IMG/VR virus record: IMGVR_UViG_3300044522_000701
Span: 1-21,601 of that record
Reading direction: 5' to 3' (one strand)
Source: a virus
Length of the DNA stretch: 21,601 bases
This document shows, one piece after another, positions 417-17,830 of the stretch (the first letter of the stretch is position 1; each line of letters begins with the position of its first letter). The notes beneath the pieces were generated by a model that was given only the letters and a program-made list of their open reading frames with translations, did not search any database and was not told where the DNA came from. The position numbers and the translations under genes were made by a program.

Positions 417-3011
417 ATGGCTAAAACATTTGGACAGTATACTGGTGGCATTCAAGCCATTCAAGGCATCGAGCAATATGGTGCTCAAAATGCCGAGATG
501 ATTTCTAAGGCTTGGGGTGGAGTTGCTAATACAATATCCAACACATACAAGACTATCAACGAACAGGAAGAGCAGACTACTGTAAACAGAGAGCAGGCTA
601 AGGGTACGGCTGACAATCTTACTGCAATTAAGAAGTTGATGGATGCAAATCCTGACACCAAGAACAGTCCTCTCTCGATGAGTATCAATGAAATGATAGT
701 CAAGTTGGGTACGGCTGGAGAGATGAACAACGGACAACTTAAAGGTGTCCTTAAATCTGCTGAAGTTTTCACATCTCAGTTGCCTCTTACGATGCAGTTG
801 CAGGACAAGGCGTTCTTGGCTCAGACTACTGTTGGCATTCAGAAGGCTCTTGCGGCTCAAAAAAATCGTACAGTTAAAGATGATACTGGCTACGATATTC
901 CAGTTCCGGGATTCTCTGGAGGAAGCCCTGACAAGTATCAAAGAGACCTCAGAACATTCTTTGAGCAACATAAGCAAGCCAACCCTAAGGTTGAACTTGA
1001 TGTAGACAAGGCTGTCAGAGACTCCATTCAAATGACCATTCAGGGGTTCACTAATGACCCTGACCTGAAGAAAAGCGACCCTGCATATCAGCAACATCTT
1101 ATCAGAGGTTTTGAAGCCCTTGGAAAGGTTGACGCTGAAATCCCGCAAGCAGGTGGTTGGTTTGGTAAAACCGAGGAAGATGTGTTCAAGGCTATGGATG
1201 AAGTTGCGGCGGCTGATAGGCTTGCCAATCAATCACCTGCTGACATCCGTAGAGGAGAAATTGCGGCTCAGGCTCTAGAGGCTCAGCGTAAGGCTGGAAA
1301 CCTTCCTCCTACTGAAGGAACTGCACCTGCCGCACCTTCCGCACCTACAGAATACAAGACTGCTACTCAAAAGTACGAAGCGGCTAAGACTGAAGTAGAG
1401 AAGTCTGTTGCCGATGCAACTGCCGAAGAGAAAACATATGACGATAAGGCAACAGCGTTTGTAAAAACTACTTCTGGAAGTCTGACTCCTGAGCAGAGTA
1501 AACACTTTAGTTGGCTTCTAAAGAAAGGCGAAGAAGCAAAAAAGAAGAAAGAAACGGCTCAAGCAAAACTTGACGGACTTGACGAAGACACATTCACAAG
1601 CGATGTTGTTCCTGTTGCTGAACAAGCGGCTCAGGCAAAGAACGCTGACACTACCTTTAAAAACTTAACCGAAGCCATCACGCTTCAAGAGGAACTGAAG
1701 TATCTAGAAAAGCAGAAAGCGTCACTTCAAGACCCCAATGGGTATGTCGGCATTCTTGACAGGGCAGACACAGCCTCAATGTTTGGTGGAGGTTCTGGTC
1801 TTGAACAGGCTGTTAACCTTAACCCTGCTGTGCAGGAGGCAATTGCAAAACTAAAGACTGGTGCAGTTTCTGATATTGCTAAAGAACATAACGCAAAGAA
1901 TTACTACAAGCAATTTATCACTCCGAGAGCAGAAGACCTCAATAACTTCATTCGTGATGTAAGAACAAAACAAAATGCTCCTCTTGCTGATGGCTCTGCA
2001 ATGAAGCCAGAAAACAGACAGGATGCCCTTGGGATGGTTGAAGGAAGAATTGCAAAACTTAAGGAAGAAATTGCGGGAAGAAAGCCCAAGGTTGCGGATG
2101 CAACTCCTGCTTCAGTTACGGCTGAGTCTAAGGTTCGTGTTGCTGAGGCTACAGGCGTTACTCCTGAAGCACCAAAGGAAGACCCTTACGCTAGCGGATT
2201 TAATTATGGTATGACAATTCCTGGGGTATTCAAAAATGAAAGACCTCTTACTTACGAAGAAGAAAAAGAAGGTATCAGAAAGTGGTTTGAAGAAAATCAC
2301 GCTGGCGTTGTTCCGTCTACGATTGATGCTATTTACAAGACTATCAGACCTGAGGCGGCTCTTATCATTAAGACTCTTCCTACTGGCGAGAAACTGATAT
2401 ATAATGAAGGCAAGGGTTGGTCTCAACTTACTCAGATGGCTCAGACTAAGGGTCAGACAGACGAAGAGAAAAGCGATGCTGGTCTATATAACTTTGGACA
2501 GATTGTTGGAAACAGAAGAATTCCTACCGAAGCAAGAGTTAACTCTGGCATTATGGTCAATGGTTTCTTTAGCGGTGGTAAGAAGAGAGCCGAAGAATTC
2601 AATCAAGCCCTTACAGACACAGCCACACTTACTGAACACATTCCTCAACTTGTAGATATGTTCGGAAAATTTGGACACTCATTTAAGACATTAAACCCAG
2701 AACAACAAGGTGTTGCGATGGGTCTTCTTGGTAAGATTCGTGCCGCTATTAAGGTAGAAACCATTGGTACTGGTCCAATTGCTATTGCTGAACACAAGAT
2801 GCTTCAGGAAAGACTTGGTGACCCCAATGCTTGGCTAACCTTTGATACTCACGAAATTGCTAAACTTCAGTCTATCCTTAATACATCTAAGTCGCAACTT
2901 CAGAGACTGGGAACTGGCGTTACTGTTACATTCAGACAGCCTACTGTTGCTGGACAGAACCCTATACAGCAGAACAAACTTGACAACCGCATTAATCAGC
3001 CTTCTAAGTAA
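417..3011 (+). CDS. Probable internal (ejected) virion protein, 864 aa
   Basis: I do not recognise a named family. The protein is long, Ala/Lys/Glu-rich and mostly helical in appearance. A Gly/Gln/Ala-rich N-terminus (MAKTFGQYTGGIQAIQGIEQ) is followed by Ala/Pro-rich linker sequence around residues 285-315 and strongly coiled-coil-like stretches around 318-450. A more globular part begins near residue 595 (GFNYGMTIPGVF). The C-terminal region contains GPIAIAEHKMLQERLGDP near residue 785. Its position directly before a giant, domain-rich protein and holin resembles the internal-core protein block of T7-like phages (gp14-gp16). I therefore infer a virion core or ejection protein. The start at 417 is 4 bases after the upstream stop and has no Shine-Dalgarno sequence (AACTTTATG). 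A structural scaffold or tail role is the main alternative. Confidence 0.7.
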   Translation: MAKTFGQYTGGIQAIQGIEQYGAQNAEMISKAWGGVANTISNTYKTINEQEEQTTVNREQAKGTADNLTAIKKLMDANPDTKNSPLSMSINEMIVKLGTAGEMNNGQLKGVLKSAEVFTSQLPLTMQLQDKAFLAQTTVGIQKALAAQKNRTVKDDTGYDIPVPGFSGGSPDKYQRDLRTFFEQHKQANPKVELDVDKAVRDSIQMTIQGFTNDPDLKKSDPAYQQHLIRGFEALGKVDAEIPQAGGWFGKTEEDVFKAMDEVAAADRLANQSPADIRRGEIAAQALEAQRKAGNLPPTEGTAPAAPSAPTEYKTATQKYEAAKTEVEKSVADATAEEKTYDDKATAFVKTTSGSLTPEQSKHFSWLLKKGEEAKKKKETAQAKLDGLDEDTFTSDVVPVAEQAAQAKNADTTFKNLTEAITLQEELKYLEKQKASLQDPNGYVGILDRADTASMFGGGSGLEQAVNLNPAVQEAIAKLKTGAVSDIAKEHNAKNYYKQFITPRAEDLNNFIRDVRTKQNAPLADGSAMKPENRQDALGMVEGRIAKLKEEIAGRKPKVADATPASVTAESKVRVAEATGVTPEAPKEDPYASGFNYGMTIPGVFKNERPLTYEEEKEGIRKWFEENHAGVVPSTIDAIYKTIRPEAALIIKTLPTGEKLIYNEGKGWSQLTQMAQTKGQTDEEKSDAGLYNFGQIVGNRRIPTEARVNSGIMVNGFFSGGKKRAEEFNQALTDTATLTEHIPQLVDMFGKFGHSFKTLNPEQQGVAMGLLGKIRAAIKVETIGTGPIAIAEHKMLQERLGDPNAWLTFDTHEIAKLQSILNTSKSQLQRLGTGVTVTFRQPTVAGQNPIQQNKLDNRINQPSK

Positions 3012-3016
3012 ATTAT

Positions 3017-6000
3017 ATGCCTGAAGAACTCTATAATACTCCTGCCCCTAGACTGTCTACAGCAAGCGGTTGGATGGCTGGGCAAGCGGCAGGACAGCAA
3101 GACCAGTCTACTCAAGGAATGAATGAGCAAACAAAGGCTTATATTGAGACGCTTGCTCCTGAAGATAGACAAAAGGCTATTGATGAATTCAATGCTCCTT
3201 TGACTGGTATGGAAGTCTATGAGGCTCTTAAGCAAAGCCCTGACTTCACACCTACGCACGAAGAGTACACAAAGTTCCTTGCATATGATAAAGAACACAA
3301 GTCCAGCATTTTGGCTGGTCTTGCCGAGGGTGCTGGTGCTGTTATGGGTGACCTTGGTCGGGCGGCTGGTGCTGTAGTTGACCACCCCCTCAAGAGCCTC
3401 GCTACTGCCCCTGCGAACCTTATTGAGGCATTTGCACAGGGTACTCGAAACCTTTATGGTATGGTGTCTCAGTCTGCTAGTCCTAATAGCGTTCTGTTCA
3501 AGATGAGAAATGCCCTTGCTGGAGATGGTACTGTTGACGGCTATAATCAGTTTCTTGAGGCTCGTAAGTTCAATAAGCATTCTGCGGATATTGCGTCTGG
3601 CAAGGAAACGCTCATTATGGACAAGGATGTCATTGACCACGACATCACGCTTGCGATGTCTTATATCGCTGACCCTACTTTATTTATTCCTTTTGGTGCG
3701 GCGGCTACTGCTGGTATGAAGGCTGTTGGTCTTGGGTCTAAACTTGCCGCAGTTGGCGGGAGAGCATCCGCTATTAAGGCGGCTCTTATTGGTGGCGGTC
3801 TTAAGTGGGGCGTTGGTGCTCCCATTGAGGCTATTGCTAATGTTACTAGAGGTACAATCGAAAAGGCGGCAAGCCTTGGTGGTACTGTGCTAGAAACTAC
3901 TACAGGCATTTCTGCGGCTGAACTGAGGGCTACGGCTAGACTCTCTGCCGCAGGCACTACAACGGCTTCTGCCCTTGGTGGTCATATTCCTATCGTATCT
4001 GACATCAGCAATGTTTATGTTGCATCTGGTGCGGCTAGGGGTTTCGGTGAAGCCATTGGTGCTGTTGGTGAGCAGATTCAAAAACGAGGCTTCAAGCGTG
4101 GCTACGATTCCTTTGCTCGTGAGGCTCTTGAACAGACAAAGGGTCTCTCTCCTCACGCTCAGGGACTCCTGAAGGTGCTTGATGCAATTGACCCTATGAT
4201 GTCATATGGCTATGGAACGGCTGTAGGTATGGGACACGGAGCACTTATTGGCGGTACTCTTGGTTATCTTAATGCAGGAGAAGAAGGTCTTGGACACGGA
4301 CTTGGTGCTGGTATCGCCCTTGGCGGTGTTGGTTCTATTGCTGGCAGGGTGTTTGCTGATGCTACTGGTGGCACTAAGATGGCTAGAGCAGAAGTGCAAG
4401 GTACTTTTAATATCGAAAGTATGAGGGCTGATAAGCACCAAAACCTTCCTGCGGCTGAACTGCTACTTGAACTAGGTACTCGCAATGGAGACAGGGCTGG
4501 TGCTTTGCAGGTCATTGGCGGTCTTGGAAGAATTGCTCCCGACCTAAGACTTCTTCTTGGCAATGTTGAAAGCCAAAAGAAACTGCTTCAGTCTAAAGGA
4601 CTCAATGCAGATGGTCATAGAGTTGATAAGGTTACTGGTAAGGTTGAAATAGGTAAAGATGGTAAGCCTATTCCGTATGAAGCCCCTCTATCCGCATTTT
4701 ATGGTGGCGAAGGTTTCACGATGCACACCGAAAAACTTGGTGATGGCAAGCAAGAGGTAACAGTTGTTATCAACACAGATGCCCTTGCTAGCGGTAGCAA
4801 GAATGTTATGCACCACGAACTTTTCCACGCTGTCTTTAAGACAACGATTATGGAGAAGATGTTCAGACAAGGCTTCTCTGAGGCTATCCTTGGCAAGTTT
4901 GATGCTAATGGCATTAAGGTTAAGGACTCTGAAATTAACCCTAAAGAGTTCAGGGCGTTCGTTATGAGAGAACTCAGGTTCAAACGAGATGCTCAAGGAA
5001 ATCAACTTGGTGCTGTTGAGGTCAATAGAAGACTCAAGGAGTTTGATGCTCACCTTGCCGAGTACCAGAAGGCTGGAAGTACAACAAGGATGAACCCTGA
5101 CTCTGCTAAGGCTCTTGATTATCTCGTTGAAGAATTTGGTGCTCACTACGCCACACAGTTTATGAAGGGCAAGCCTGTTGACTACCTGTTCCGTGGAGCA
5201 GAGTACACAGGTATGCAAGGCGTTATGGATAGACTACATAATAACTTCCTAGACTTCTGGCAGGGACAGACTGCTAGACAGAACCCCACATTTGGAGACT
5301 TCAAGTCCAAGTCATTTGATGAATCATTTGGTCCGAACAAGGGCAAGCGTACTCTTGAACAAAGAAGTGCGGCTCTTGACTATATGGTGCAAGACCTTCT
5401 GCGTTCTGTCGCTGGCAAACGCAAGGGAAGCACGAACTCTTTTGATGTTAGAAGTCTTTCTCCTGAGGCTCGCAATGCTTACTTTGATAGTGCTGGTATG
5501 GATGGAGTGAGGGCTTACTATGACAAGGATGGCAACCTCCGCAATGTCACAGAGGCTCAGGTTAGAACTGAAAGACTTGAAGTCGGTAAGGCTATTCACG
5601 AGTCTCTGTCTAAACTTGACCCTAAGGAAACTGTTGGACTTGTTGATGCTGACGGAAACTTTGGTTCTTCCTCAACGCTTGGTACTAAGTTTAACGACAC
5701 AGTACTGGCTCACCTAGTCAAAGAAGGTCACATCAGCCAGCAACTTGCTGAGCGTATTAAGACTGTTCAGGATATTGTTAGCGGTAAGGGTTCTAATCGT
5801 GTCTCGTACCTCTACAAGGGTGCGTCTATGGAAACCGAAGTTGGTCCGAATTCGCCTCGTGTTTACGGCAAGGATGTTCCTATCACATCTAGAGAAACCA
5901 TTGTCGTAGGATACAGCATTAAGATTAAAAAGGATGGTGGTCTGTCTCTTGTTATGAAAGGACTGGACGCTAATGTCATTGATGCCAGAGGTAACATTCA

Positions 6001-9000
6001 ATGGGCTAAGCCTGAAGTTAGAGCACTTTGGCAGGGCGATAGAAATGCTTTTGACCAGTCGTTCTTTGAGTACCTAAGCAACGCTAGTAAGGCTAGCACA
6101 GATAGAACTCGTGTCGAGTCTTCCCTCCTTCCCCTGCTTGCTCGTGGTGACGGATTTGGTGCAGAGCGTAGAAACATTATGCACCAGTTCCTTGGTATGG
6201 CTAAGAGAAAGGATGCAGGATACTTCAATGTTCCCATCGCTGAGATTCCTAGAGGCAAGACCTCTGTTGTCACTAACTTCACGATGGACACGATGAGTCC
6301 TATGCAGAGCAACTCGCCTCTGCGTTATGACTTCAACTTAGACAATGCTCATAGCGACCTCTCTAGAAACTTTAAGGTGTCTGATATGGAATACGAAAAG
6401 ACTCCTCAGGCAGACATATACACTCACGCATCTGGATTTAAGATTATTGCTGACAAGAATGGTGCGTCTAAACTTTACGATAATCGTGGTCAATCCCTAG
6501 GTTCGTTTAAGGACAAAGACCTTGCTTCTGGTGCAATGGAAAAGGCTTATCTGTACGAACGAGCCGAGACCAATGTTCGCATTGAACGAGTCAAAGAAGA
6601 CCAACAGAAACAACAGCAGAACTTCAAGGTCTGGGATGGCAAGACAATGGAAGAAGCCAGACGGCTTGGAGACATCTTTGAGACAGAAGAAGGCAAAACT
6701 TTCGTACAAGGCACTTCTCTTATTCGTCAGACTCGTGAAGAGTTCTACAGCGACAACTTTACTAAACTCCGACAGGCAGACCCTGATACAGTTATGGCAG
6801 TCACGGAGCAGATTGCTCAGCGTGGTTATCAACTCAGAGAACTTAGAACTCAGGCTTACGACAAAGTGCAGGCTGAACTAGCCAAGGGCAAGGGCAGAGC
6901 CTACAAGTTGGCTCGTGACCAGTACGATGTCATCGTCTCTCACGCTGACAGATATAACGACATCCTGCTTGCTTACGAAAGAGCAACTAGAGCCAAGACC
7001 AATGGTCAGGGCATCCTTGACTACATCAACACTCACAGACGCACCTCTACTGGCTATGACAATATGGCTAAGGTGTTCTTTGGAGACCACTACGACTCTC
7101 AGTTCCAGACTGGCAAGGCTGTCACTACTGTGGCTACACACGGAACAAGCAGTCACGAACTGCTGACCTCTAGAGAGTTCGACCCTGCACAATCTGGTTC
7201 TAAGCACGGAGCAGAACACGACAAGGTTGGCATCTTCCTGTCTGGCGAGACTAAGACCTCTCACGGCTACGCTGACCCTAAGGAGGGTGGCTTTGGATAT
7301 CGTCAGGTTAGAGCCGCCATTAAGTTCAACAACCCCCTAGTAGTTGACGCTGAGTTCAGATGCTACAGCCCTGAAATATACGAAGGGTATATGAGAAAGG
7401 TAAGAGATGGCGGTCACGATGGCGTTATCATCAAGAATGTTTACGATGGTGGTAGTGCTGATACTGTCTTCATTATCAATAACGAGTCCGTAAAAGATAA
7501 CACGGCTATCATTGACACGCACATTGGTATGGAGCGAGTCACCAGACAGTCCGAACAGATGGGTAGTGTGTCTGCTGACAGCGACCAAGGCTCTGTTAGA
7601 TACCCGATTCAGGAATCTACGCCTCGTGGCAAGGGAGTCCGTGTCGGCTCTGAATTAGGTCTGTCTTGGAAGGTTGATGACTCTCCCAAGATGTCTCCTC
7701 AGGAAGCACTTAAGGAAGCGGCATTTGAAAGAGTTATTCCTACTGCAAAGATTGATGAGGCTAAGATTGCTGGCAGGTATGAAGAGGGCGTTGATATCAC
7801 ACGCCTTGCTGATAAGAATGTTGCTGTTCTTGCTTATGACTCTGCTGGTGTTCTTCACCTCGCTGATAAGGGTACTGGTCAAAAGATGGCTGACTCTAAT
7901 GCTTGGGGCGGTGCGATGCACTCCGTCAGGTCTGAGGCTCTTAGATACGGCAACACCGCCATTGCATCTACGATGCAGGGCGTGAATGCCATCATAAAGG
8001 TTCTTGGAAGCGTTGAGGCTAAGGCTAAAGCGGCTGGTGAGAAGACCTACTATGCCACAATCCTTGGTGCTAACCCTGAGAAGATGATGTCTTCTACTGT
8101 TGGCGTTAGAATCGCTAACTCGCATATCACTAAACTTATGGCTAATGGTATGCTTCACGAGAGCGATGTTCGTGGTGCTATCCTGAAGATTGCTGGCTCT
8201 AAGAGTGGAGACAAGTTGATGTTCCCCAATCTTGGAGTCACGGAAGGAATGACTACGGCTGAAATGATTCAGACAATCAGTTCCGTCTTTGCCAGACCTC
8301 TTCCAGAAAATAACAAGGCTATATCTGCAAGCACTAAGGGTTCTGCCTTCAAGCAGAAGACTGCGTTCATTGAAAGCCTTGTCAGAAACATTAAGGCTTC
8401 CGACTCTTGGAAGGCTAACGCTGAAGGAATTAAGAAGTACCTAGGAACGAACGAGTCGATGAACAATGCTGAAGGTATCATTAAGGCTCTTGGTCTTTCT
8501 GCTACAGACCCTACGAATTTCGATAAGTCTGGAAATGTAATCAAGAATGGTCATATGTATATGGCTCTTGAGTTCATTACTGGTAAGGAGATTGAATACA
8601 GAAAGGGCGGTCACCCTAGTTATCCTTACGATATTAGATACAAGGACGGCTCTCCTGTAAAGGTTCTCAGATTTGAAACCCCGATGCTTGCGACAGATGC
8701 CGCTGGCAGTAAGGAAGGCATTGATATTGGAAATAGACTTACTGTTCAGGTTGCTGAAAAGACTAAGGGTCATCCTAGATTTGGTATGCAAAAGATGGAC
8801 GCTCAGGGTAATCCTGTGTTTACTGATGTGCCTTCTTATACCTATGAAGTCCCGACAGGCTCTGGAACAGGTGAAATGAGAATGAAGAGTGCTAGTAATA
8901 TGGTTAGCCGTGACCCTAACTTCAACACAGGAAAGACAACGGCTGAACTTGGACTTAAGGACACGCTTGCATTCAAGGTAAGAGATAAGTTCTACTCTCC

Positions 9001-11776
9001 TCTCGACAAAGCGGTTGACGATATCTTTAAGCGTAATGTCGGCAAGGATAAGTCCATCAACCCTGCAAGACTGATTAACCTTATCAAGAATGCCTCTGGC
9101 GGTAACATCGGCAAGATTATGACAGAGGCTCAGGCTAATGGTCTTATTGATTTTCTTGAGGCTGGTGGTCAGACCAAGATGCCTATCAAGGAAATCAAAC
9201 AGTACCTTAAGGACAATAGGATTGAAGTCCGTGTAGATAAGAAGACTACAGATGTCGATGCTGACTTTGGTGAGACTACTGAGTACATCGCAAAGCCGTA
9301 TATCAACAGAGACCTAGACGCACAAGTTAAGGGCAAGGTTGAACAGCACACGATTGTTCTCAGAACCAATCCGATGTATTCGCACGGACACAAGGGTCAC
9401 TTTGGCGAAGCCGTTACTCACATCAGAGGCACGATGAGAAAAGATGCTTCCAACAGAAATGTTTTCTTTGTTGATGAAATGCAAATACAGAACGCCGCCG
9501 CAGACAACCTCAAGCCAGAACAGCGTGTCGCTTTGCTTAAAGAAGTTGAAACCATCAAGGAAATTAGAGACAAGTACAAGCACCTCTATCCTGATGTAGA
9601 AGCAGAAGGTGGCGGTACATATAGTCCGTTTACAACTGCTGAGAAGCAGAGAAGCATTCTTTACAGACTTGCCGCTAGTGTTAAGCGTGGCACTCTCGCA
9701 GAAAGACTGAAGGAATTCAAGGAGTTTAAAGCCAAGGAAGCCAGAGGGTTAAAGAAGAATGGCAGGGAAACTACAGCCAACAAAATCTTTTCTGACGAGT
9801 TCGTTGACCTGATGGACTTCATCAGAAAGCACAAAGATTCTACTGTCATTGAAAGAACGGAGACAACCCTGAAGAGCCTGCACGACCGATTTGCTTTGTT
9901 CCGTGATAGAAATGCTATGCTTAGAGACATCAAGGCTAATGGCGTTGAAGGCTATGTTGACAGATTCCTTGAGCAGAACTGGTTCTTTGATAATGAATAT
10001 CCTGCGGTCAGGGATGGTATGGGTCGTGCCGAAGGAGGCAGTAGGGCTAATAGAAGAAACATAGAGACAAAGGAAGCCGTAGTCCCTGTTCCTGACGCAG
10101 TCAGAAACCTGCTTGAAAGAGTTGTTCGTGATGAGGTTATTTCTAAGAGCGAAATGAACAAAGAGTTCAACGAAAAGATTCCTGCCTCTCAAGCAGACCT
10201 TGCTACTGGAATTAGAAACCCTGACAGACTGACAGGTCTTGGCAATCTTGCTGAGATGATTTCAAACAAAACATCTAAGGCTAACAGAGAAAACAATAAC
10301 GCCCCGCTTCAAGATTTTGCTGAAGTTACAAGACTTCAAAGTCGTGCTATTATGCAGAAGGCTATTGAACTTCACGCTGACAGAGTTGTCTTTGTTCGTT
10401 CTAGGGACACGCATCCTTCTGTTGATATGCGTAACGCAAGAGGACAACAACTCTACGATGTCTCTATCCCTGCCATTGTCGGTGGTGAGTTAAAGAAGTA
10501 TGGCGTAGAACTAAAGCCTGCAAATGACATCTCCAAGAGCAAGGCTTACGAGTCTTCTCCTGTTCACGAAGAGCAGACGATGCTTTCTGAGTCTTTGGGC
10601 TATGACATCACCAACAAGATGATTGGTCAAGACGCTTGGCACGGACAGCCTACATACAAGGTCTCTGATAAAGCACCTTCTCGTGCAGAAGTTAAACCTG
10701 ACCTCAAGCCCTTTGAAGGAAACTTCAAGGTGAGCGATGTTGTTAAGTCTGGCGTTGCTAAACTTGATGAGACGCTTGCACGGCTTGCTAAGACAGAGAA
10801 TCTGTCCCCTGCACTCAGAGATGCAATGAGGTCGTTAAAGGATGCTGTGCGTAAGCAGGATGCTACAGATGAGTTCCTTGTCCCTGAACTTAGAGAATCC
10901 TATGACGCTATGGTGAGAAGCATTGAAGACCAGATGGCTGGTGCATCGCTAACTCCGATTGAAAGCCTAAAGGAAATCCAGAAGGCACTCAAGCCTCTCG
11001 ACAAGAAGATTCAAAAGAACACGGAGCGTATCCAGAAGAACATCAAAGATTCTTATGAGGCTGATATGGCTGAAGGTGCTGATGTTGAAAGTCAGACAAC
11101 AGCCGATAGAAGAACTGCGGCTCGTAGAGATATGGAGGAAGGTGCTAGCCTTGAGTCTGACCAGATTACTTCTGAGGTAGACCGCAGGCGTGGTGATGCT
11201 AGACTAGATATGGAAGAGGGTGCTAACCTTGATTCCGACCAAGTGCATCAACAAATTGGTGAGTACAATGCAGACCAGAACGAAGCGGCTAATGTTGAAG
11301 CATCTGAGCCTCGTAATCAGAACCTGCCTCCCCAGTTCCCTTACCCTGCCCCGCCTGCCCCTCAGGGACTGCCTAGACCTACCCCTAGCGGTAAGCCTGC
11401 CTTCCCTAGACCTCCTGCTACGCCTGCCCTTCCTCAGGTCAAGCCTAGCGGGGCTGTTCCGTTCCCCCGACCTCCCGCTACCCCTGCCCTCCCGAAAGGC
11501 TCTATAGCCCCTCCTCCCCCCCAAGGAACGCCTCCTCCTAACCCTCTCGCTCCTAGCCTTACAGCCGCTAAGCCTCTTCCCAAGTTGTCGGCTTGGAGAG
11601 GGTGGACGCTGGAGAAGGGTCTCAATGGTGGCTTCTGGTCTAACGCTGTCGGCTGGATGATTATCGTCCAAGGCGATAAGTTCAAGGTGTACAACCCCCA
11701 GAAAGCGATGCAGGGAATCTATGAAGACCTTGACCAAGCCAAGAGGAGAGTCCAAAGGGCTGAACCTAAGCAATGA
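3017..11776 (+). CDS. Giant polyvalent virion protein (2919 aa) with metallopeptidase and ADP-ribosyltransferase-like domains
   Basis: One uninterrupted frame of 2919 residues. Gly/Ala-rich, membrane-compatible stretches lie around residues 210-290 and 395-455. A zinc-metallopeptidase motif HHELFH (H600, E601, H604) has a candidate third ligand at E705/E706, as in gluzincin-like 'MPTase-PolyVal' domains. Residues about 1373-1500 look like an ADP-ribosyltransferase of polyvalent proteins: HGT at 1375, GIFLS, SHGYA with Y1418, and DGVIIKN near 1468. Residues about 1590-1985 (AWGGAMHS near 1630) and about 2100-2500 (VDEMQIQ at 2152-2158, LYDVSIP near 2480) resemble domains found in phage large polyvalent proteins. 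Imperfect acidic repeats (about 2682-2760), a proline-rich region (about 2770-2855) and a small C-terminal module (2858-2919) follow. I infer a protein packaged in the virion and injected, T7 gp16-like in position. Its stop overlaps the holin start by ATGA. Confidence 0.85.
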   Translation: MPEELYNTPAPRLSTASGWMAGQAAGQQDQSTQGMNEQTKAYIETLAPEDRQKAIDEFNAPLTGMEVYEALKQSPDFTPTHEEYTKFLAYDKEHKSSILAGLAEGAGAVMGDLGRAAGAVVDHPLKSLATAPANLIEAFAQGTRNLYGMVSQSASPNSVLFKMRNALAGDGTVDGYNQFLEARKFNKHSADIASGKETLIMDKDVIDHDITLAMSYIADPTLFIPFGAAATAGMKAVGLGSKLAAVGGRASAIKAALIGGGLKWGVGAPIEAIANVTRGTIEKAASLGGTVLETTTGISAAELRATARLSAAGTTTASALGGHIPIVSDISNVYVASGAARGFGEAIGAVGEQIQKRGFKRGYDSFAREALEQTKGLSPHAQGLLKVLDAIDPMMSYGYGTAVGMGHGALIGGTLGYLNAGEEGLGHGLGAGIALGGVGSIAGRVFADATGGTKMARAEVQGTFNIESMRADKHQNLPAAELLLELGTRNGDRAGALQVIGGLGRIAPDLRLLLGNVESQKKLLQSKGLNADGHRVDKVTGKVEIGKDGKPIPYEAPLSAFYGGEGFTMHTEKLGDGKQEVTVVINTDALASGSKNVMHHELFHAVFKTTIMEKMFRQGFSEAILGKFDANGIKVKDSEINPKEFRAFVMRELRFKRDAQGNQLGAVEVNRRLKEFDAHLAEYQKAGSTTRMNPDSAKALDYLVEEFGAHYATQFMKGKPVDYLFRGAEYTGMQGVMDRLHNNFLDFWQGQTARQNPTFGDFKSKSFDESFGPNKGKRTLEQRSAALDYMVQDLLRSVAGKRKGSTNSFDVRSLSPEARNAYFDSAGMDGVRAYYDKDGNLRNVTEAQVRTERLEVGKAIHESLSKLDPKETVGLVDADGNFGSSSTLGTKFNDTVLAHLVKEGHISQQLAERIKTVQDIVSGKGSNRVSYLYKGASMETEVGPNSPRVYGKDVPITSRETIVVGYSIKIKKDGGLSLVMKGLDANVIDARGNIQWAKPEVRALWQGDRNAFDQSFFEYLSNASKASTDRTRVESSLLPLLARGDGFGAERRNIMHQFLGMAKRKDAGYFNVPIAEIPRGKTSVVTNFTMDTMSPMQSNSPLRYDFNLDNAHSDLSRNFKVSDMEYEKTPQADIYTHASGFKIIADKNGASKLYDNRGQSLGSFKDKDLASGAMEKAYLYERAETNVRIERVKEDQQKQQQNFKVWDGKTMEEARRLGDIFETEEGKTFVQGTSLIRQTREEFYSDNFTKLRQADPDTVMAVTEQIAQRGYQLRELRTQAYDKVQAELAKGKGRAYKLARDQYDVIVSHADRYNDILLAYERATRAKTNGQGILDYINTHRRTSTGYDNMAKVFFGDHYDSQFQTGKAVTTVATHGTSSHELLTSREFDPAQSGSKHGAEHDKVGIFLSGETKTSHGYADPKEGGFGYRQVRAAIKFNNPLVVDAEFRCYSPEIYEGYMRKVRDGGHDGVIIKNVYDGGSADTVFIINNESVKDNTAIIDTHIGMERVTRQSEQMGSVSADSDQGSVRYPIQESTPRGKGVRVGSELGLSWKVDDSPKMSPQEALKEAAFERVIPTAKIDEAKIAGRYEEGVDITRLADKNVAVLAYDSAGVLHLADKGTGQKMADSNAWGGAMHSVRSEALRYGNTAIASTMQGVNAIIKVLGSVEAKAKAAGEKTYYATILGANPEKMMSSTVGVRIANSHITKLMANGMLHESDVRGAILKIAGSKSGDKLMFPNLGVTEGMTTAEMIQTISSVFARPLPENNKAISASTKGSAFKQKTAFIESLVRNIKASDSWKANAEGIKKYLGTNESMNNAEGIIKALGLSATDPTNFDKSGNVIKNGHMYMALEFITGKEIEYRKGGHPSYPYDIRYKDGSPVKVLRFETPMLATDAAGSKEGIDIGNRLTVQVAEKTKGHPRFGMQKMDAQGNPVFTDVPSYTYEVPTGSGTGEMRMKSASNMVSRDPNFNTGKTTAELGLKDTLAFKVRDKFYSPLDKAVDDIFKRNVGKDKSINPARLINLIKNASGGNIGKIMTEAQANGLIDFLEAGGQTKMPIKEIKQYLKDNRIEVRVDKKTTDVDADFGETTEYIAKPYINRDLDAQVKGKVEQHTIVLRTNPMYSHGHKGHFGEAVTHIRGTMRKDASNRNVFFVDEMQIQNAAADNLKPEQRVALLKEVETIKEIRDKYKHLYPDVEAEGGGTYSPFTTAEKQRSILYRLAASVKRGTLAERLKEFKEFKAKEARGLKKNGRETTANKIFSDEFVDLMDFIRKHKDSTVIERTETTLKSLHDRFALFRDRNAMLRDIKANGVEGYVDRFLEQNWFFDNEYPAVRDGMGRAEGGSRANRRNIETKEAVVPVPDAVRNLLERVVRDEVISKSEMNKEFNEKIPASQADLATGIRNPDRLTGLGNLAEMISNKTSKANRENNNAPLQDFAEVTRLQSRAIMQKAIELHADRVVFVRSRDTHPSVDMRNARGQQLYDVSIPAIVGGELKKYGVELKPANDISKSKAYESSPVHEEQTMLSESLGYDITNKMIGQDAWHGQPTYKVSDKAPSRAEVKPDLKPFEGNFKVSDVVKSGVAKLDETLARLAKTENLSPALRDAMRSLKDAVRKQDATDEFLVPELRESYDAMVRSIEDQMAGASLTPIESLKEIQKALKPLDKKIQKNTERIQKNIKDSYEADMAEGADVESQTTADRRTAARRDMEEGASLESDQITSEVDRRRGDARLDMEEGANLDSDQVHQQIGEYNADQNEAANVEASEPRNQNLPPQFPYPAPPAPQGLPRPTPSGKPAFPRPPATPALPQVKPSGAVPFPRPPATPALPKGSIAPPPPQGTPPPNPLAPSLTAAKPLPKLSAWRGWTLEKGLNGGFWSNAVGWMIIVQGDKFKVYNPQKAMQGIYEDLDQAKRRVQRAEPKQ
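11063..11296 (+). repeat. Imperfect tandem repeats encoding D-M-x-E-G-A modules
   Basis: Inside the giant gene, the sequence encoding DMAEGADVES, DMEEGASLES, DMEEGANLDS and the degenerate DQNEAANVEA starts at 11063, 11129, 11207 and 11273. The spacings are 66, 78 and 66 bases (22, 26 and 22 residues). Between the acidic starts lie basic segments (for example TADRRTAARR), giving alternating charge. All units stay in frame, so this is a protein-level repeat, probably a helical stalk or spacer before the proline-rich tail. Confidence 0.7.
11390..11509 (+). repeat. Proline-rich 20-residue duplication
   Basis: The segment FPRPPATPALP occurs twice, starting at 11402 and 11462, exactly 60 bases (20 residues) apart, within a longer run of Pro, Ala and Ser codons from about 11320 to 11565. 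The two copies differ at several third codon positions, so the duplication is not very recent or is kept at protein level. It looks like an extended flexible linker in front of the C-terminal module of the giant protein. Confidence 0.75.
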
Positions 11777-12078
11777 GTCCTATCGACCCCACACTCGTAG
11801 AGACGGCTGAGGAGTTCAAGAAGGGCGGCTGGGTAGTCGCAGTCCTTGGTGCTTTAGGTGCAATCGCTAGATTCATTATAACGGAGGAAAAGTTCAGGTG
11901 GGTAATCCTGCTCCGAAAGGCTATTGCTGGCTCTATCGTTGGTACGCTGGTGTACTTTGGAATCAACTATGCCCCCATCGACCCTATCTATAAGGGAATC
12001 ATTTACTCCTCCTCTGGTGCGTTAGCCCCTGATATCTTTGAATGGGTTAAGGCTAAGTTCACACAGCAGGTAAAATAA
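11773..12078 (+). CDS. Holin (101 aa)
   Basis: A small membrane protein with a short soluble N-terminus (MSPIDPTLVETAEEFKKGG). It has a first hydrophobic segment around residues 19-36 (WVVAVLGALGAIARFII), then a basic loop EEKFRW..LLRK, a second segment around 50-65 (AIAGSIVGTLVYFGI), a third weaker segment around 73-88, and a charged tail. The pattern resembles LydA-like phage holins, which form the inner-membrane lesion that triggers lysis. The ATG overlaps the stop of the giant gene (ATGA), implying translational coupling, and a lipoprotein gene follows 2 bases later. No murein-degrading enzyme lies in this cluster; the nearest one is the exported transglycosylase at about 16.6-17.1 kb. 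Confidence 0.75.
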   Translation: MSPIDPTLVETAEEFKKGGWVVAVLGALGAIARFIITEEKFRWVILLRKAIAGSIVGTLVYFGINYAPIDPIYKGIIYSSSGALAPDIFEWVKAKFTQQVK

Positions 12079-12080
12079 TT

Positions 12081-12809
12081 ATGCAAACTAAACGGCTCAA
12101 AAGTTTACAAAGCCTGACAATGCTATTTATGTTTGTAACCTTGTCTGGATGTTCATCTACGCCAGAGCCTAAGCCCACAATTATTATAAACAAAGATAAG
12201 GACACCTACATTGACAAAGTCGAAGCCATCGTTTCTGAAGCGGGTTCTGCCCTTACTGCTGTCGCTCCTACCCTTCCTGCTGGAGTGGGTAGAGAACTCG
12301 TTGAAGGGCAAATCGTCAGGCTCAGCGGAATCAGCAAGCCGTCAGTCGAGAAGGTCGAATCCTTTAGAGCAATGGTTAAATCAAACGACCACAAAGCGGT
12401 CAAGAAAGACAAAGAAGAAGCGTCTAAGGTAGATGCTGAGACTAATGCGTTGTGGGCAGTAGTAGAGGAGCAGGAGACTGCAATTGCTATCGCCAATGAG
12501 ATTGCAAACAATGCGGATAAGGAGAGGCAAAGGGAGACGAAGGATAAGATACTATGGATGTTCAGTTGTATCGGTGGTGCTATCTTTGTCGCTGGTGTAG
12601 CACTCCTAGCGTTCTCTCCACGCAAAGCCTCAGGGGTTGTTCTGATGCTAGCAGGTGGGCTAGCGATTGGCTCTGCGTGGATTTTTGATTCACCTTGGTT
12701 TCCTTGGATTGCAGGAGCAGGCGTGGGGTTCGCCCTGCTTGATATCTTGGTTATCGGAATCACCAAGACCTACAAGTATCTAAGACCTTCAGGTCGCTCG
12801 GTCACCTAA
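12081..12809 (+). CDS. Phage lipoprotein with C-terminal membrane segments; possible spanin-like lysis protein
   Basis: The N-terminus is a clear lipoprotein signal: basic MQTKRLK, a hydrophobic stretch, then lipobox LSGC with the lipidated cysteine at residue 24. A periplasm-sized helical region of about 130 charged residues follows, rich in Lys, Glu and Ala. The C-terminus then holds up to three hydrophobic segments (roughly residues 155-177, 182-200 and 208-228) and a short basic tail. A lipid anchor at one end and membrane helices at the other recalls unimolecular spanins such as T1 gp11, which join the outer and inner membranes at the end of lysis. Those have a single C-terminal helix, so the extra segments are odd. 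It starts 2 bases after the holin stop. The 3' end overlaps the convergent gene by 21 bases. Confidence 0.65.
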   Translation: MQTKRLKSLQSLTMLFMFVTLSGCSSTPEPKPTIIINKDKDTYIDKVEAIVSEAGSALTAVAPTLPAGVGRELVEGQIVRLSGISKPSVEKVESFRAMVKSNDHKAVKKDKEEASKVDAETNALWAVVEEQETAIAIANEIANNADKERQRETKDKILWMFSCIGGAIFVAGVALLAFSPRKASGVVLMLAGGLAIGSAWIFDSPWFPWIAGAGVGFALLDILVIGITKTYKYLRPSGRSVT

Positions 12810-13107: not shown

Positions 13108-13347
13108 TTACTTAGTGATGATTCGGTAGTGAGGGATAGGGCGAGTGACCATACCAGACTTCACTCGGTACATACGCATTTCAAGAAGATTATTCTTGAG
13201 AGCGAAACTAAGTTTGCGGGAGATGATAGGCTCAGAACTATTCCACAACTTCTGAATCTCTCTGCGGGTATAGAATCCCTTGGCAGGCTTTTCAGCGACA
13301 GCCTTACCAAACAGTTGTTCTAGAGCCTTGATGTCTTTGTTGTTCAT
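13108..13347 (-). CDS. Small winged-helix-like DNA-binding protein (79 aa)
   Basis: I place the start at 13347 (MNNKDIKALEQLFGK), because this ATG overlaps the stop of the upstream phosphoesterase gene as ATGA. A longer frame to 13449 would lie inside that gene. The order of elements suits a winged helix: GFYTRREIQKLW as helix 2, SSEPIISRKLSFALKNNLLE as recognition helix, then MRMYRVKSG and PIPHYRII as the wing strands. It may regulate transcription or assist replication. No ligand-binding domain is present. Function is inferred from sequence pattern only. Confidence 0.65.
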   Translation of the reverse strand: MNNKDIKALEQLFGKAVAEKPAKGFYTRREIQKLWNSSEPIISRKLSFALKNNLLEMRMYRVKSGMVTRPIPHYRIITK

Positions 13348-14081
13348 AGTCCTTTGATAGAGTAGATAAATTTTTTGCCGACTCGGTGAGCCTGCCAGAC
13401 CTTCCAGTCCTTGCCTTGGACGAATCCATAAGTCCAGCCTGACCCCCACTTGCTCGTGGCTAGGCGATTCTTACTATAGTCCATCGTCTTGACGCAGAGA
13501 CAGCCTCCAGAGAAGCCTACTGCTCCGCTGTGCTTCTTAGCGTTGACCTGCTGGATAGAGTGTAGGTGACCCATAATGACAGCACCCTGAGGCTCTGCGT
13601 AATGGATAGCGTGTTCCTCTACGGCACGAGTGCCACAGGTGTAGCCGTGTACGAACTTGACCTTGCCTAGGGTATGAACTCCGTCCTCAGCGTGGTAGTC
13701 GTAAATCTTCTTACAGCCATTCTTCTTGAGATGGCTATGGATGTCCGTCTTTAGGTCGTGGCAATAGTCTACCATCATACCACTCGTAGAGCCGTTGATA
13801 ATCTGGTCGAGGCGGTCATCGTGGTTTCCGTTTAAGAAAATAGTAGGTTGCACTCTGCTGACGAAATCCTTGCCAGCCTTGACATCAGCAACAAGCGACT
13901 CGTCTTCTTCCTTGCGACCAGCACCCCTACGGATACTGCGGAAGTCCCAGTTGTCACCTAGGTGGATGACCTCGTGAGGGGAGAACCATTTAAGAAACTT
14001 GTAGAACTCGGATGCAACATCCTTGTCCACCATATCTCCGTGGTTATCTCCAACGGCTACGAACTTAATTAGTTTAGACAT
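13344..14081 (-). CDS. Calcineurin-like metallophosphoesterase
   Basis: Metallophosphoesterase motifs appear in order: GDNHGD near residue 11 (D-x-H), HLGDNWD near 41 (GD), NGNHDDR near 84 (GNHD), then VHGY and MGHLHS further on (GH and GHxH). These are the ligands of a two-metal centre that hydrolyses phosphodiesters or phosphomonoesters. The family is frequent in phages, acting on nucleotides, nucleic-acid ends or signalling nucleotides; the substrate cannot be read from sequence. I chose MSKLIKFVAVGD at 14081, because the open frame to 14180 adds a basic, motif-free extension that overlaps the next gene. The chosen start overlaps the upstream gene by 8 bases, and the stop overlaps the downstream start as ATGA. 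Confidence 0.88.
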   Translation of the reverse strand: MSKLIKFVAVGDNHGDMVDKDVASEFYKFLKWFSPHEVIHLGDNWDFRSIRRGAGRKEEDESLVADVKAGKDFVSRVQPTIFLNGNHDDRLDQIINGSTSGMMVDYCHDLKTDIHSHLKKNGCKKIYDYHAEDGVHTLGKVKFVHGYTCGTRAVEEHAIHYAEPQGAVIMGHLHSIQQVNAKKHSGAVGFSGGCLCVKTMDYSKNRLATSKWGSGWTYGFVQGKDWKVWQAHRVGKKFIYSIKGL

Positions 14082-14277
14082 AGATAGAGGGGTCAGGATT
14101 AACCGCACCGCCAGAGATGATGAGGTTATTGAGACGCTCGACCTCTTCCTTGAGACGCTTGTTCTCCTCAGCCAAGGCACGGCACTCGTTTCCTAGGTTC
14201 AGCACATTCTTTACAAGACTCGTCTTGATAGAGTCATCAAAGTTATGTTCGTAAAAGATTAAGGATGGGGTGTCCAT
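14074..14277 (-). CDS. Small coiled-coil protein (67 aa)
   Basis: No known family. After a short N-terminus (MDTPSLIFYEHNF), residues about 17-52 form a heptad-patterned helix with leucines, valines and charged residues (SLVKNVLNLG...RALAEENKRLKEEVERLNNL). This suggests a dimeric coiled coil. It ends in a short Pro/Asn tail. It overlaps the phosphoesterase start by 8 bases and its own start overlaps the upstream gene by 19 bases, consistent with a coupled operon. It could be an adaptor or a spanin-like small protein, but no signal peptide or membrane segment is present. Confidence 0.6.
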   Translation of the reverse strand: MDTPSLIFYEHNFDDSIKTSLVKNVLNLGNECRALAEENKRLKEEVERLNNLIISGGAVNPDPSIYV

Positions 14278-14468
14278 TTGTTTAGAGGCTTTGCAAAGAG
14301 TTCGTCCCAGCGTTTCTTATTCCTTGCGAGATTGCCAGCCGTGACAGTAGCCTCCCAAGGGGTTTGCATTTTTCCAGAAAGAACACTACCTGTCCTAGGC
14401 ACTCCACAGGGTCTGCCTGCTCGCTTGCGTGTAAGCAATGTCTTTGCATAATCATTTACTTCAGACAT
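14259..14468 (-). CDS. Small basic protein of unknown function (69 aa)
   Basis: I do not recognise a family. The protein is basic and has the segment LTRKRAGRPCGVPRTG near residue 12, faintly like an AT-hook core (GRP flanked by basic residues). The C-terminal half is Trp- and Lys-containing (NKKRWDELFAKPLNKW). A nucleic-acid-binding role is possible but unproven. The ATG is preceded by ACCT rather than a Shine-Dalgarno sequence and lies inside the end of the upstream gene (13-base overlap). Confidence 0.55.
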   Translation of the reverse strand: MSEVNDYAKTLLTRKRAGRPCGVPRTGSVLSGKMQTPWEATVTAGNLARNKKRWDELFAKPLNKWTPHP

Positions 14469-14761
14469 AGGTTACGCTTCTTGAGAAGCAGGCTGAGGAC
14501 ACGGACTTCACGCACGGACTGGTTGTGCTTAGGATTAAGTTCAGTACGCTTGATAGCGTCAGCATAAGAGAGCAACTGCGTGTCGCTAAGTTTGCCTAAC
14601 TTGTCTTCATACTTAGCGTCCCATTCGCAACGCAGAGTAGGAAGGTTGTAGCGAGTCTTGCACTTGGCAATGCTCCTGTAGTCTAGGCTGAACTTAATGC
14701 CTGCTTGTCGGGCGGTGAGTCCCTCGATTAAGGCTAGGCGGTATGCGTGGAGTAGGGTCAT
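14456..14761 (-). CDS. Putative helix-turn-helix protein (101 aa)
   Basis: The N-terminal half reads like a homeodomain-type helix-turn-helix: LIEGLTARQAGIKF as the first helices and turn, then SLDYRSIAKCKTRYNLP as the recognition helix. The C-terminal half is charged and helical (ADAIKRTELNPK, LSLLLKKRNL). A DNA-binding or regulatory role is likely but the family is not identified. The start overlaps the upstream stop as ATGA at 14758-14761, supporting coupled translation. Confidence 0.6.
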   Translation of the reverse strand: MTLLHAYRLALIEGLTARQAGIKFSLDYRSIAKCKTRYNLPTLRCEWDAKYEDKLGKLSDTQLLSYADAIKRTELNPKHNQSVREVRVLSLLLKKRNLCLK

Positions 14762-15024
14762 AGAATTTCGTAGCCTTCTTTTTCGAGGTCGAGAGGAAGG
14801 TCAAGGAAGTCCTTAACCTTGCCGTACTTGTCGGCAGGGAAGTACATAGTCTCTCTAGGGATGGTAGACTCAATGATGTACTCGTGACCTTGGAACGGAG
14901 GAGACATCTTAAACAGGAAGGCTTCACCTCGGCACTTCTTAAGATTCTTATAGACAGTAGGCGTGTCCATAATGGTAGCCGTCTTGTATACGAACTTGTC
15001 TTCTGCTTTGATGAGGTTGTCCAT
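14758..15024 (-). CDS. Hypothetical phage protein (88 aa)
   Basis: No known family or motif. The start is placed at 15024 (MDNLIKAEDKF), because this ATG shares one base with the upstream stop (TAATG). The frame extending to 15048 would add eight residues inside the upstream gene. The protein looks like a small alpha/beta domain with strands such as FVYKTATIMD, EAFLFKMSPPF and HEYIIESTI and an acidic C-terminus. Nothing in the sequence gives a function. Confidence 0.6.
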   Translation of the reverse strand: MDNLIKAEDKFVYKTATIMDTPTVYKNLKKCRGEAFLFKMSPPFQGHEYIIESTIPRETMYFPADKYGKVKDFLDLPLDLEKEGYEIL

Positions 15025-15410
15025 TAGAGTTTCTTGGCGTGAACCCAATCCTTCATAGCACCGAAGTCCTTGTCCCCTGCTAGTTGAGCAAGGCGGTCTC
15101 CAGTACGCTCAAGGGCGTGGATTTTATTCTTAGCCTCTGCTAGGTCGCTGAGGGTTTGAGCCAGCGTAGGGCTGTTCAGACGCTCGCAGAGTTCCCTTAC
15201 AGGAACGCACAGCATCAGAGAAGCCGCCCTCACAGAGTTCTGCGTGACCACGAACTTACCATCGGCAGACTTGAAGTCGGCTGACTGAGCAATGATTTCT
15301 TCTGCTTGTTTCATAGGTATGGTGACGAATTTGCTGTGAGGGCGTTTCTTCTGAGCGATGATAGCGTGTCGTAGGTAGGATACTCCTACGCTCTTAGGCT
15401 CGTACTGCAT
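15024..15410 (-). CDS. Hypothetical phage protein with helical C-terminus (128 aa)
   Basis: Not recognised. The N-terminal part (YLRHAIIAQKKRP..KFVTIPMKQAEEIIAQ) is basic. The middle (DGKFVVTQNSVRAASLMLCVPVRELCERL) could hold a small helix-turn-helix-like unit. The C-terminal part is a charged helix (LSDLAEAKNKIHALERTGDRLAQLA) with coiled-coil character. It overlaps the upstream gene by 17 bases and the downstream start by one base (TAATG). A DNA-binding accessory protein is one possibility. Confidence 0.6.
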   Translation of the reverse strand: MQYEPKSVGVSYLRHAIIAQKKRPHSKFVTIPMKQAEEIIAQSADFKSADGKFVVTQNSVRAASLMLCVPVRELCERLNSPTLAQTLSDLAEAKNKIHALERTGDRLAQLAGDKDFGAMKDWVHAKKL

Positions 15411-15588
15411 TCTCAGGGAACAGAGACTGCATCAGCGTGGTGGTGTTCACACGCTTCATCTTCTTGTCGATGATGAGATTGATGTAGGTCTGGTTGTGAA
15501 TCTTAGTCGGCTTCAGGAGACGAGCGACTCGACCATCGCTGAGAACGATGTACTGCGAGTTGTTGAAGGGCTTGGCGGTCAGGGTCAT
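15394..15588 (-). CDS. Small NUMOD4-like protein (64 aa)
   Basis: Residues about 12-58 resemble the small DNA-binding module found in front of HNH homing endonucleases (NUMOD4-type, 'Y.vs..GrV..l...'). They read YIVLSDGRVARLLKP, then YINLIIDKKMKRVNTTTLMQSLFPE. No HNH catalytic residues are present, so it would bind DNA without cutting, or be a remnant of a homing endonuclease. The start is in the CCTATG context with no Shine-Dalgarno sequence. The gene follows ERF by 19 bases. Confidence 0.55.
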   Translation of the reverse strand: MTLTAKPFNNSQYIVLSDGRVARLLKPTKIHNQTYINLIIDKKMKRVNTTTLMQSLFPENAVRA

Positions 15589-15607
15589 AGGTATGATAGG
15601 TTAGGGG

Positions 15608-16405
15608 TTAGAAGGGGATGGAGTCTTCAGCGACAGGAGCAGAAGGGTTCTGCGACTCGTTCCAGAGACGGACAGCCTCAGCCTTGGTGTTAGCATCCTT
15701 AGCGGACACAGTAGTGTTGTCACCAAAGGGCTTGGGAGTCCAGCGAGTAGCGAAGTAACTGAGGTCACCAAACTTCACCTCACGATTGGCTTCAGTCAGG
15801 GGCAGTTCGCTGAGGGGAGTACCCTTGCGGTCACCAAAGGGAGCGACAGCCACAAAGCCAGCAGGGGCAGGCTTGGCAGGGCTAGCCGTCACACTCGGTG
15901 CAGGGCGAGCCACAGGCTTTGCATAAGAGGCAGTCGGCTTAGAGCCAGACTTAGCCAGACGATTAGTCTCTGCATCGCAATCTTCAGTTGCCACGCCAGC
16001 CACAGAAGCCAGAGCGTACCTGCGAAGATAAGAATAGATAGACCCAGCGTCCTGACCAGACATTTCCTTGTCAGCAGGAATGAGAGCATCCGCTTCAACA
16101 GAGCCACCAGAGGCGTGGATGAGAATGGTACGAACTCCGACAGCACCCTCGCTTCCGATAGGGAACTGGAGGACTGCAAGTCCGTGCTTCTTAAAGATAG
16201 GCTTAAGGGTTTCGAGGTGCTTGGAGAGGCTCGCATAGGAATTCTTATGGAATGGATTAGTCGAGTCGGCAATGATGTCCTGCGTCTCAGAGAGAGCATT
16301 GACCAGAGCGATGTTGAGTTCAGTTTGCTGTTCAGGCGTATTGCGGTTCATAGAAGTGGTGTCAAAAATGGAATCAGAGTAAGTAGAATAGGAGAAGTCG
16401 GACAT
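15608..16405 (-). CDS. erf: ERF-family single-strand annealing protein
   Basis: ERF proteins anneal complementary single strands and work with a 5'-3' exonuclease in phage recombination. The diagnostic order is present at about residues 30-150: ALVNALSETQDI, YASLSKHLETLKPIFKKHGLAVLQFP, VRTILIHASGGSV, and the conserved SIYSYLRRYALASVAGVATEDCDAE. A Pro/Ala/Lys-rich linker (about 155-190) leads to a second small region (about 195-250). The extreme C-terminus is AEDSIPF, an acidic tail ending in IPF like that of SSB proteins. The partner exonuclease is encoded upstream at 18526-19338 in the same operon. The start at 16405 lies 12 bases after the ribbon-helix-helix gene and has TACTCCTATG, not a Shine-Dalgarno sequence. 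Confidence 0.9.
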   Translation of the reverse strand: MSDFSYSTYSDSIFDTTSMNRNTPEQQTELNIALVNALSETQDIIADSTNPFHKNSYASLSKHLETLKPIFKKHGLAVLQFPIGSEGAVGVRTILIHASGGSVEADALIPADKEMSGQDAGSIYSYLRRYALASVAGVATEDCDAETNRLAKSGSKPTASYAKPVARPAPSVTASPAKPAPAGFVAVAPFGDRKGTPLSELPLTEANREVKFGDLSYFATRWTPKPFGDNTTVSAKDANTKAEAVRLWNESQNPSAPVAEDSIPF

Positions 16406-16417
16406 AGGAGTAAGGTA

Positions 16418-16591
16418 TTACGAGAGGGGGTGCGTGTCAACTTCTTTCTGCATAATAGTGCGAACAAAAGTAGAGCGAGTCATTGCCACATCTTTAGCAA
16501 TCTTTGTGATTGACTTAAGGAGTTTGTGAGGCAGGCGAACTGTAAGCATATCTTCAGAGGTTCTGGAAAGGCGTTTGGTTTTGGTTTTCAT
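16418..16591 (-). CDS. Ribbon-helix-helix (Arc/CopG-like) DNA-binding protein, 57 aa
   Basis: A short gene found by reading the gap between the transglycosylase and ERF genes. The 57-residue product begins MKTKTKRLSRTSEDM and then has a typical ribbon-helix-helix core. The strand MLTVRLP is followed by helix HKLLKSITKIAKDV, the turn residues AMTRS, and helix TFVRTIMQKEV. Such proteins dimerise and insert the beta ribbon into the DNA major groove, usually as repressors. The ATG overlaps the transglycosylase stop as ATGA (16588-16591), strongly supporting translation. It probably represses an early promoter, possibly the operon's own. Confidence 0.85.
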   Translation of the reverse strand: MKTKTKRLSRTSEDMLTVRLPHKLLKSITKIAKDVAMTRSTFVRTIMQKEVDTHPLS

Positions 16592-17088
16592 CGGGAAAGA
16601 ATGTAATTGGCTCGCTTAAGGATGCAGGCACGAGCGTCATCAAGTTTATAAGAATTGTATACGAACTCGACCTTAGCCGCACCACCAAAGCCCATATTAT
16701 AAGCCATATAGAGTTGGATGTCAGTCGGCTTGATGCCACGCTTCTGGAAGCGATAGTACAGCAGGAGGAAGTAAGCCTTGGCTACTTGGCGGGAGATGAC
16801 AGGGTCTTTGGCTCGTGTCTTCCATTGGTCATTGATGTGACCAAACATCCAAGCATAGTTGTCAACGAAAGCACCTCGGTCATTATACTCCATCCACTTG
16901 CAACCATCAAGCCAAGCCTCTTGGTGCAACTGGTAAGCCCCCAGAGCCTTTCCCTTGTCCCCAACTGCATTGGGGTTGAAGTTGGATTCAATCATAGCGA
17001 CTGAGTCCAAGAACTTTTCTGAGATGACAGACTCGGTTTTGGCGTGTCCAAAAGAACAGAGAGCCAGCAGGGAGAACAGGTGCTTCAT
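16588..17088 (-). CDS. Exported lytic transglycosylase / endolysin (166 aa)
   Basis: The start is set at 17088 (MKHLFSLLALCSFGHA), which gives a short Sec signal peptide with probable cleavage after GHA. The open frame to 17124 would add twelve residues and bury the signal. The mature part has the lysozyme-like transglycosylase signature: FLDSVAMIESNFNPNAVGD with catalytic E34, then GALGAYQLHQEAW (GxYQ motif) and a later AYNMGFGGA segment (the 'AYNxG' motif). These enzymes cleave peptidoglycan between MurNAc and GlcNAc. With a Sec signal it can reach the periplasm without the holin. It is encoded inside the replication operon, away from holin and lipoprotein. A role in lysis is likely; a role in entry or superinfection is an alternative. 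Confidence 0.85.
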   Translation of the reverse strand: MKHLFSLLALCSFGHAKTESVISEKFLDSVAMIESNFNPNAVGDKGKALGAYQLHQEAWLDGCKWMEYNDRGAFVDNYAWMFGHINDQWKTRAKDPVISRQVAKAYFLLLYYRFQKRGIKPTDIQLYMAYNMGFGGAAKVEFVYNSYKLDDARACILKRANYILSR

Positions 17089-17142
17089 AGACTGGGAAGA
17101 AAAGGAAATGGTAATACGATGCAAGCGGAAAAGTGAAATAGT

Positions 17143-17826: not shown

Positions 17827-17830
17827 AAGA

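Follow-up and report, generated by a model that had tools for sequence, protein, structure and literature searches.

A 2919-residue phage protein with a constant trunk and tail around a variable middle: a probable polyvalent protein with zincin-like, ART-fold and GNAT-fold parts

The window, that is the whole stretch of DNA analysed here, is a 21.6-kb IMG/VR fragment (21,601 nucleotides) and the source of the giant ORF. This ORF, all its parts and the three neighbouring genes named next lie on the plus strand. The ORF occupies 3017..11776, begins with ATG and runs through 2919 codons without a stop. Upstream, 417..3011 encodes an 864-aa protein which has a divergent counterpart in relatives and no database match, the next ATG being that at 3017; downstream, a holin-like ORF (11773..12078; PHROG holin, E 6e-4) overlaps the giant gene's stop and is followed by an Rz-like spanin candidate (12081..12809; E 0.005). 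The first-pass annotation had placed the giant gene after the 864-residue protein and before the holin, and this late virion and lysis setting is backed by the gene order in the relative G002, which reads terminase, a 730-aa protein, a scaffold-like protein, the major head protein (E 1.2e-48), further virion proteins, a 736-aa protein, the giant protein, holin and Rz-like protein. No PHROG tape-measure match was obtained for the giant protein, and PF18857 (LPD38) gave no match in a search in which the control was also silent.

Elsewhere in the window, a 136-aa ORF at 2-412 shows a short and weak PAPS reductase match (E 2.7e-4, below the cut-off), and the minus strand encodes at 13344-19338 a metallophosphoesterase, an Erf-like annealing protein, a replication initiation O-like protein and exonuclease VIII. 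This replication/recombination block is about 74-94% identical in relatives with a far more diverged giant protein. In the 88-kb contig G001:C1 of another relative, two terminase-like matches (39539-40009 and 83153-83497) lie 43.6 kb apart; perhaps two phage genomes were joined in assembly or are present in tandem.

All motifs named in the first-pass annotation were found at their places within the 2919-residue ORF, namely HHELFH (residues 599-604), EE (705-706), HGT (1375-1377), GIFLS (1405-1409), HGYA (1416-1419), DGVIIKN (1468-1474), VDEMQIQ (2152-2158) and LYDVSIP (2479-2485), as was the proline-rich stretch towards the end (about 2761-2860). Since key residues are invariant in relatives and dN/dS is low (about 0.11-0.19 in four domains of the giant protein, compared with two relatives), these motifs are not chance occurrences, and the giant coding sequence, as judged from sequence comparison, is under purifying selection. 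The N-terminus, which had been described as Gly/Ala-rich and membrane-compatible, is indeed Gly/Ala-rich, but only one 19-residue segment (at 429; mean hydropathy 1.44) exceeds the threshold of 1.4, so that no clear membrane span can be recognized in these stretches. Scans of Pfam, PHROG and NCBIfam yielded no useful matches for the whole giant protein, and its full profile found no PDB sequence match; as these library scans were nearly empty, the analysis was built on relatives.

Relatives of the giant protein were found at 47 loci in IMG/VR scans. Searches with a reach of close to moderate relatives found none in GenBank phages or plasmids (tblastn) and none in 84,980 prokaryote genomes (two scans), and a cultured relative was not found; likely members in UniProt are uncultured Caudovirales proteins named 'Large polyvalent protein associated domain'. 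To obtain the family layout, iterative profiles of window segments were run over the window protein and 41 relatives, 42 proteins in all, which share one common layout consisting of a trunk to about residue 1180, a variable middle and a C-terminal tail. Nine distant relatives retain 41-60% identity in residues 181-480 and 61% in the 39 C-terminal residues, in contrast to only 1-12% over about 1500-2460. The middle measures 1129-2120 residues in the 38 proteins which contain both copies of a 55-residue module, and 33 non-redundant members show 17 different combinations of its modules, whole modules having been gained, lost and relocated between family members. This plan of a constant trunk and tail with a swapped middle is well supported; like the duplicated 55-residue module, it was absent from the first-pass annotation.

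No other long part of the family is as well conserved as the Gly/Ala-rich N-terminal trunk (3320..4417; residues 102-467), and the middle trunk region (5363..6535; residues 783-1173) is also conserved, without an assigned known fold. Within the variable middle, a mobile module (7820..8704; residues 1602-1896) is present in 26 family proteins, where it lies after the ADP-ribosyltransferase (ART) domain in the window's clade and immediately ahead of the tail in other members, and it is missing in L005. The pLDDT of its predicted core is mostly about 58-91, a fair to good confidence. Further downstream, a charged region (10697..11287; residues 2561-2757) is common mainly to close relatives and is followed by a proline-rich linker (11297..11596; residues 2761-2860).

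The two copies of the 55-residue module bracket the variable middle, copy 1 at the trunk end (6383..6544; residues 1123-1176) and copy 2 at the extreme C-terminus (11603..11758; residues 2863-2914). They are homologous to each other (hhalign 98.3%, E 1.9e-14, from independent alignments with 31 and 33 sequences). Counted from the end of the YNP..G[IV][YF] motif, the distance between copy 2 and the stop is 16-21 residues in 53/53 places read. We infer an address or assembly role for this module; if this is true, the C-terminal copy would be a candidate tag by which proteins are addressed to the phage particle.

The HExxH...EE domain, which belongs to the trunk, spans 4640..5293 (residues 542-759), and its H600, E601, H604, E705 and E706 are invariant in 34/34 sequences. 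The model shows a beta-hairpin followed by the helix that carries HExxH and, further on, a long helix that carries EE, which is the same strand/helix order as in the zincin core described by Iyer et al. 2017 (PMC5512222). The metallopeptidase that had been proposed for this region therefore keeps its invariant residues and a fitting topology, but it does not belong to the MPTase-PolyVal family: PF18818, the one model tried among the zincin clades of polyvalent proteins, failed to match the giant protein in any of 13 records, whereas the same search does match separate genes of the relatives G001 and G002. These genes, located at G001:C1:79305-79676 and G002:C1:37952-38320 and about 306-308 aa long, combine a strong PF18818 match with an ArdC-like layout. 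An hhalign comparison of the HExxH domain with ArdC-like MPTase proteins was not significant, and the domain found neither a Pfam nor a PDB sequence match. The VIA list for the model of residues 470-1555 is free of zincins, which says nothing against a zincin because the list was filled by the ART part, which took up the fold search. Motif and predicted topology thus argue moderately for a zincin-like domain. That it is instead some other metal-binding or structural helix-pair domain without peptidase function appears somewhat unlikely; such a reading would account for the missing sequence match to any zincin, it profits from the poor coverage of this part by the fold search, and HExxH occurs also in other enzyme classes according to the N4 RNA polymerase paper (PMC12633501), but the invariance of all five residues across 34 divergent sequences and the agreement with the zincin core speak against it.

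The predicted ART-fold domain (7052..7570; residues 1346-1518) contains H1375, Y1418 and D1468, which are invariant in 14/14 uninterrupted orthologues, and shows a dN/dS of about 0.11 when compared with L002. In a one-genome search, PF18760 (ART-PolyVal) matched residues 1375-1518 (7139-7570; HMM positions 11-133/140, E 4e-5) with 18.4 bits, which is less than the Pfam curated cut-off of 31.2 bits, and the domain is therefore filed as an ART fold close to PF18760 and not as a member. In the AlphaFold model of residues 470-1555, most of this domain reaches pLDDT values of roughly 80-95, and its loops fall to about 56 at the lowest. Among the BFVD matches of the model are PolyVal ADP-ribosyltransferases (A0A8S5UGT4, E 4.1e-4, TMt 0.51, rmsd 3.3), and the VIA matches are mostly ARTs with Z 7.1-7.7, values below 8 which alone are only in keeping with an ART. 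Among PDB sequences, cholix matches best (E 0.08), where HGT pairs with HGT and the HGYA Tyr with the HGYA Tyr; the strand-2 position, Tyr in cholix, is Phe1407 (GIF) in the window protein. The Tox-ART-HYD2 clade is characterized by H in strand 1, Y in strand 2 and D in strand 5 (PMC5512222), of which H1375 and D1468 are in place, while strand 2 carries the F of GIFLS and the invariant Y1418 lies in the following helix. Other relatives possess a second ART above the PF18760 cut-off, to which hhalign relates the window ART with 59% only. The ART-like domain which the first-pass annotation had seen at 1375-1475 is well supported as an ART fold by the profile match, the model and the invariant residues, and its activity is predicted.

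The VDEMQIQ and LYDVSIP signatures, which had been listed without a connection, are both real, but according to the model they belong to a single domain of GNAT-like fold, one to each of its two separated halves, and not to two modules. In detail, the first half (9260..9532; residues 2082-2172) holds VDEMQIQ, the second (10283..10651; residues 2423-2545) holds LYDVSIP, and both are separated by a helical insertion (9533..10282; residues 2173-2422) of low confidence that varies between relatives. In the model of residues 1556-2570, the beta strands and the final helices are of fair to good quality and the insert is poor. The VIA matches listed for this model in the top 50 are either proteins with a GNAT fold or complexes that contain such a protein; among the matches listed, 41 chains have a Z of at least 8, the best reaching Z 10.1 over 126 residues with an rmsd of 3.3. 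An hhalign comparison of the module, insert removed, with the family's own GNATs was not significant, and PF00583 has no match in the window; as there is no sequence-profile link to GNATs, the assignment as a GNAT-like fold is made by model only. The acyl-CoA motif [QR]xxGx[GA] is absent after VDEMQIQ in the window, and the module is therefore called GNAT-like and not filed as a GNAT member. The middles of relatives hold GNAT domains (55 copies).

The VDEMQIQ half is homologous to the phage EEIQSDW domain (hhalign 99.2%, E 9.4e-20), and so are both halves together when the inserts are cut (E about 1e-19). The pattern EEIQSDW(H/G/A)Q ... FYDxxLP occurs in at least 120 IMG/VR stretches (L088-L207), often in long ORFs. 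Among the translated EEIQSDW matches listed, 120 are located in ORFs, 67 of them with a FYDxxLP-like partner. In ten ORFs examined there was no Pfam match above threshold at the EEIQSDW core; one has LPD39 after the domain. Among 111 members of the wider domain, R is found at +11 in 87, G at +14 in 100 and Y/F at +15 in 95, and the full [QR]xxGx[GA] motif in 12. This R/G/Y-F pattern after EEIQSDW recalls RGKGYG, the canonical GNAT motif. In contrast to most members, the window version lacks SDW and the RxxG[YF] following it. The conserved Glu and Tyr of the module may be catalytic. If the fold is as modelled, it would provide a predicted fold for a phage domain that occurs in at least 120 viral stretches and has no Pfam model.

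The constancy of trunk and tail against the varying middle, the ART and GNAT domains in the middles of relatives and the late head/lysis gene order lead to the reading of the giant protein as polyvalent. The chain combines unlike domains, namely a predicted ART fold, HExxH/EE and a predicted GNAT fold, and its gene is found among late virion genes, which agrees with the polyvalent character put forward in the first-pass annotation and with phage polyvalent proteins being typically near late genes (PMC5512222). The giant protein is thus probably a phage polyvalent protein, presumably carried by the virion, with zincin-like, ART-fold and GNAT-fold parts; its packaging is predicted. The view that its main role is structural, as an ejection or tape-measure-like protein, with the enzyme-like modules being secondary or decaying passengers, is unlikely. 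The gene is the largest of the late cluster and adjoins the lysis genes, the usual site of internal or tape-measure proteins, the trunk is far better conserved than the middle, and the GNAT-fold module lacks the CoA motif; against this stand the invariant H1375, Y1418 and D1468 in 14 orthologues, the low dN/dS of the ART domain, a middle length that varies almost twofold, unlike a ruler, and the lack of a tape-measure match in PHROG. It is quite improbable that the protein, rather than being delivered by the virion, is produced during infection and works late in the same cell, in host takeover or phage exclusion, as the overlap with the holin-like ORF might suggest, because host-modifying enzymes are of little use so late, the invariant C-terminal module suits particle sorting and phage polyvalent proteins adjoin virion genes (PMC5512222).

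As a virion-carried polyvalent protein, the giant protein would be made late together with the head genes, packaged through the trunk and/or the C-terminal module, and would enter the cell along with the DNA. The zincin-like domain might then cut its own chain (or else a host protein) and thereby release the enzymes of the middle; the ART would transfer ADP-ribose from NAD+ onto host proteins, as T4 Alt does on RNA polymerase, and the GNAT-fold module would serve as a further modifier or for binding. Evolutionary swapping would concern the middle. Delivery and mechanism are inferred here, and the order of cleavage and the targets are conjecture. As a more far-reaching and tentative possibility, which we consider rather doubtful as a whole, the family might represent virion-borne polymorphic cassettes, in which trunk and tail, each closed by a 55-residue copy, serve as delivery frame and address tag between which modifying enzymes are exchanged, the EEIQSDW domain being a hidden, insertion-split GNAT-fold enzyme. 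If this is true, the swapped middle would point to a repertoire of host-modifying enzymes that phages use on entering the cell.

Several known systems can be compared. T4 Alt is an injected ART acting on host proteins (PMC5512222) and would be a functional parallel to the proposed role of the ART domain, but it belongs to another ART clade (R-S-E) and is not a polyvalent protein. The N4 virion RNA polymerase (gp50; PMC12633501) is likewise an ejected protein of about 3,500 residues with a conserved HExxH domain; its payload, however, is an RNA polymerase, and the HExxH domain follows the payload. With ART-PolyVal (PF18760) the window domain shares the H and D and an ART-like fold, differing in the sub-cut-off score and in the Phe at the position that is Tyr in cholix. 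The best structural matches of both models are A0A6J5R0Z9, A0A6J5MBV1 and A0A6J7W8Y5 from uncultured Caudovirales (E 3e-37 to 1e-14; 7e-21), uncharacterised proteins whose names, 'Large polyvalent protein associated domain' or 'NAT_SF', stem from automatic annotation and which probably belong to the same family. The phage polyvalent proteins of Iyer et al. 2017 (PMC5512222) combine zincin, ART and GNAT near virion genes, and the giant protein resembles them as a huge multidomain chain by late virion genes with zincin-like, ART and, in relatives, GNAT modules. What sets it apart is the fixed trunk and tail closed by 55-residue copies around a variable middle, an arrangement not described in the available part of that paper. 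The giant protein is a variant of this known kind of polyvalent protein.
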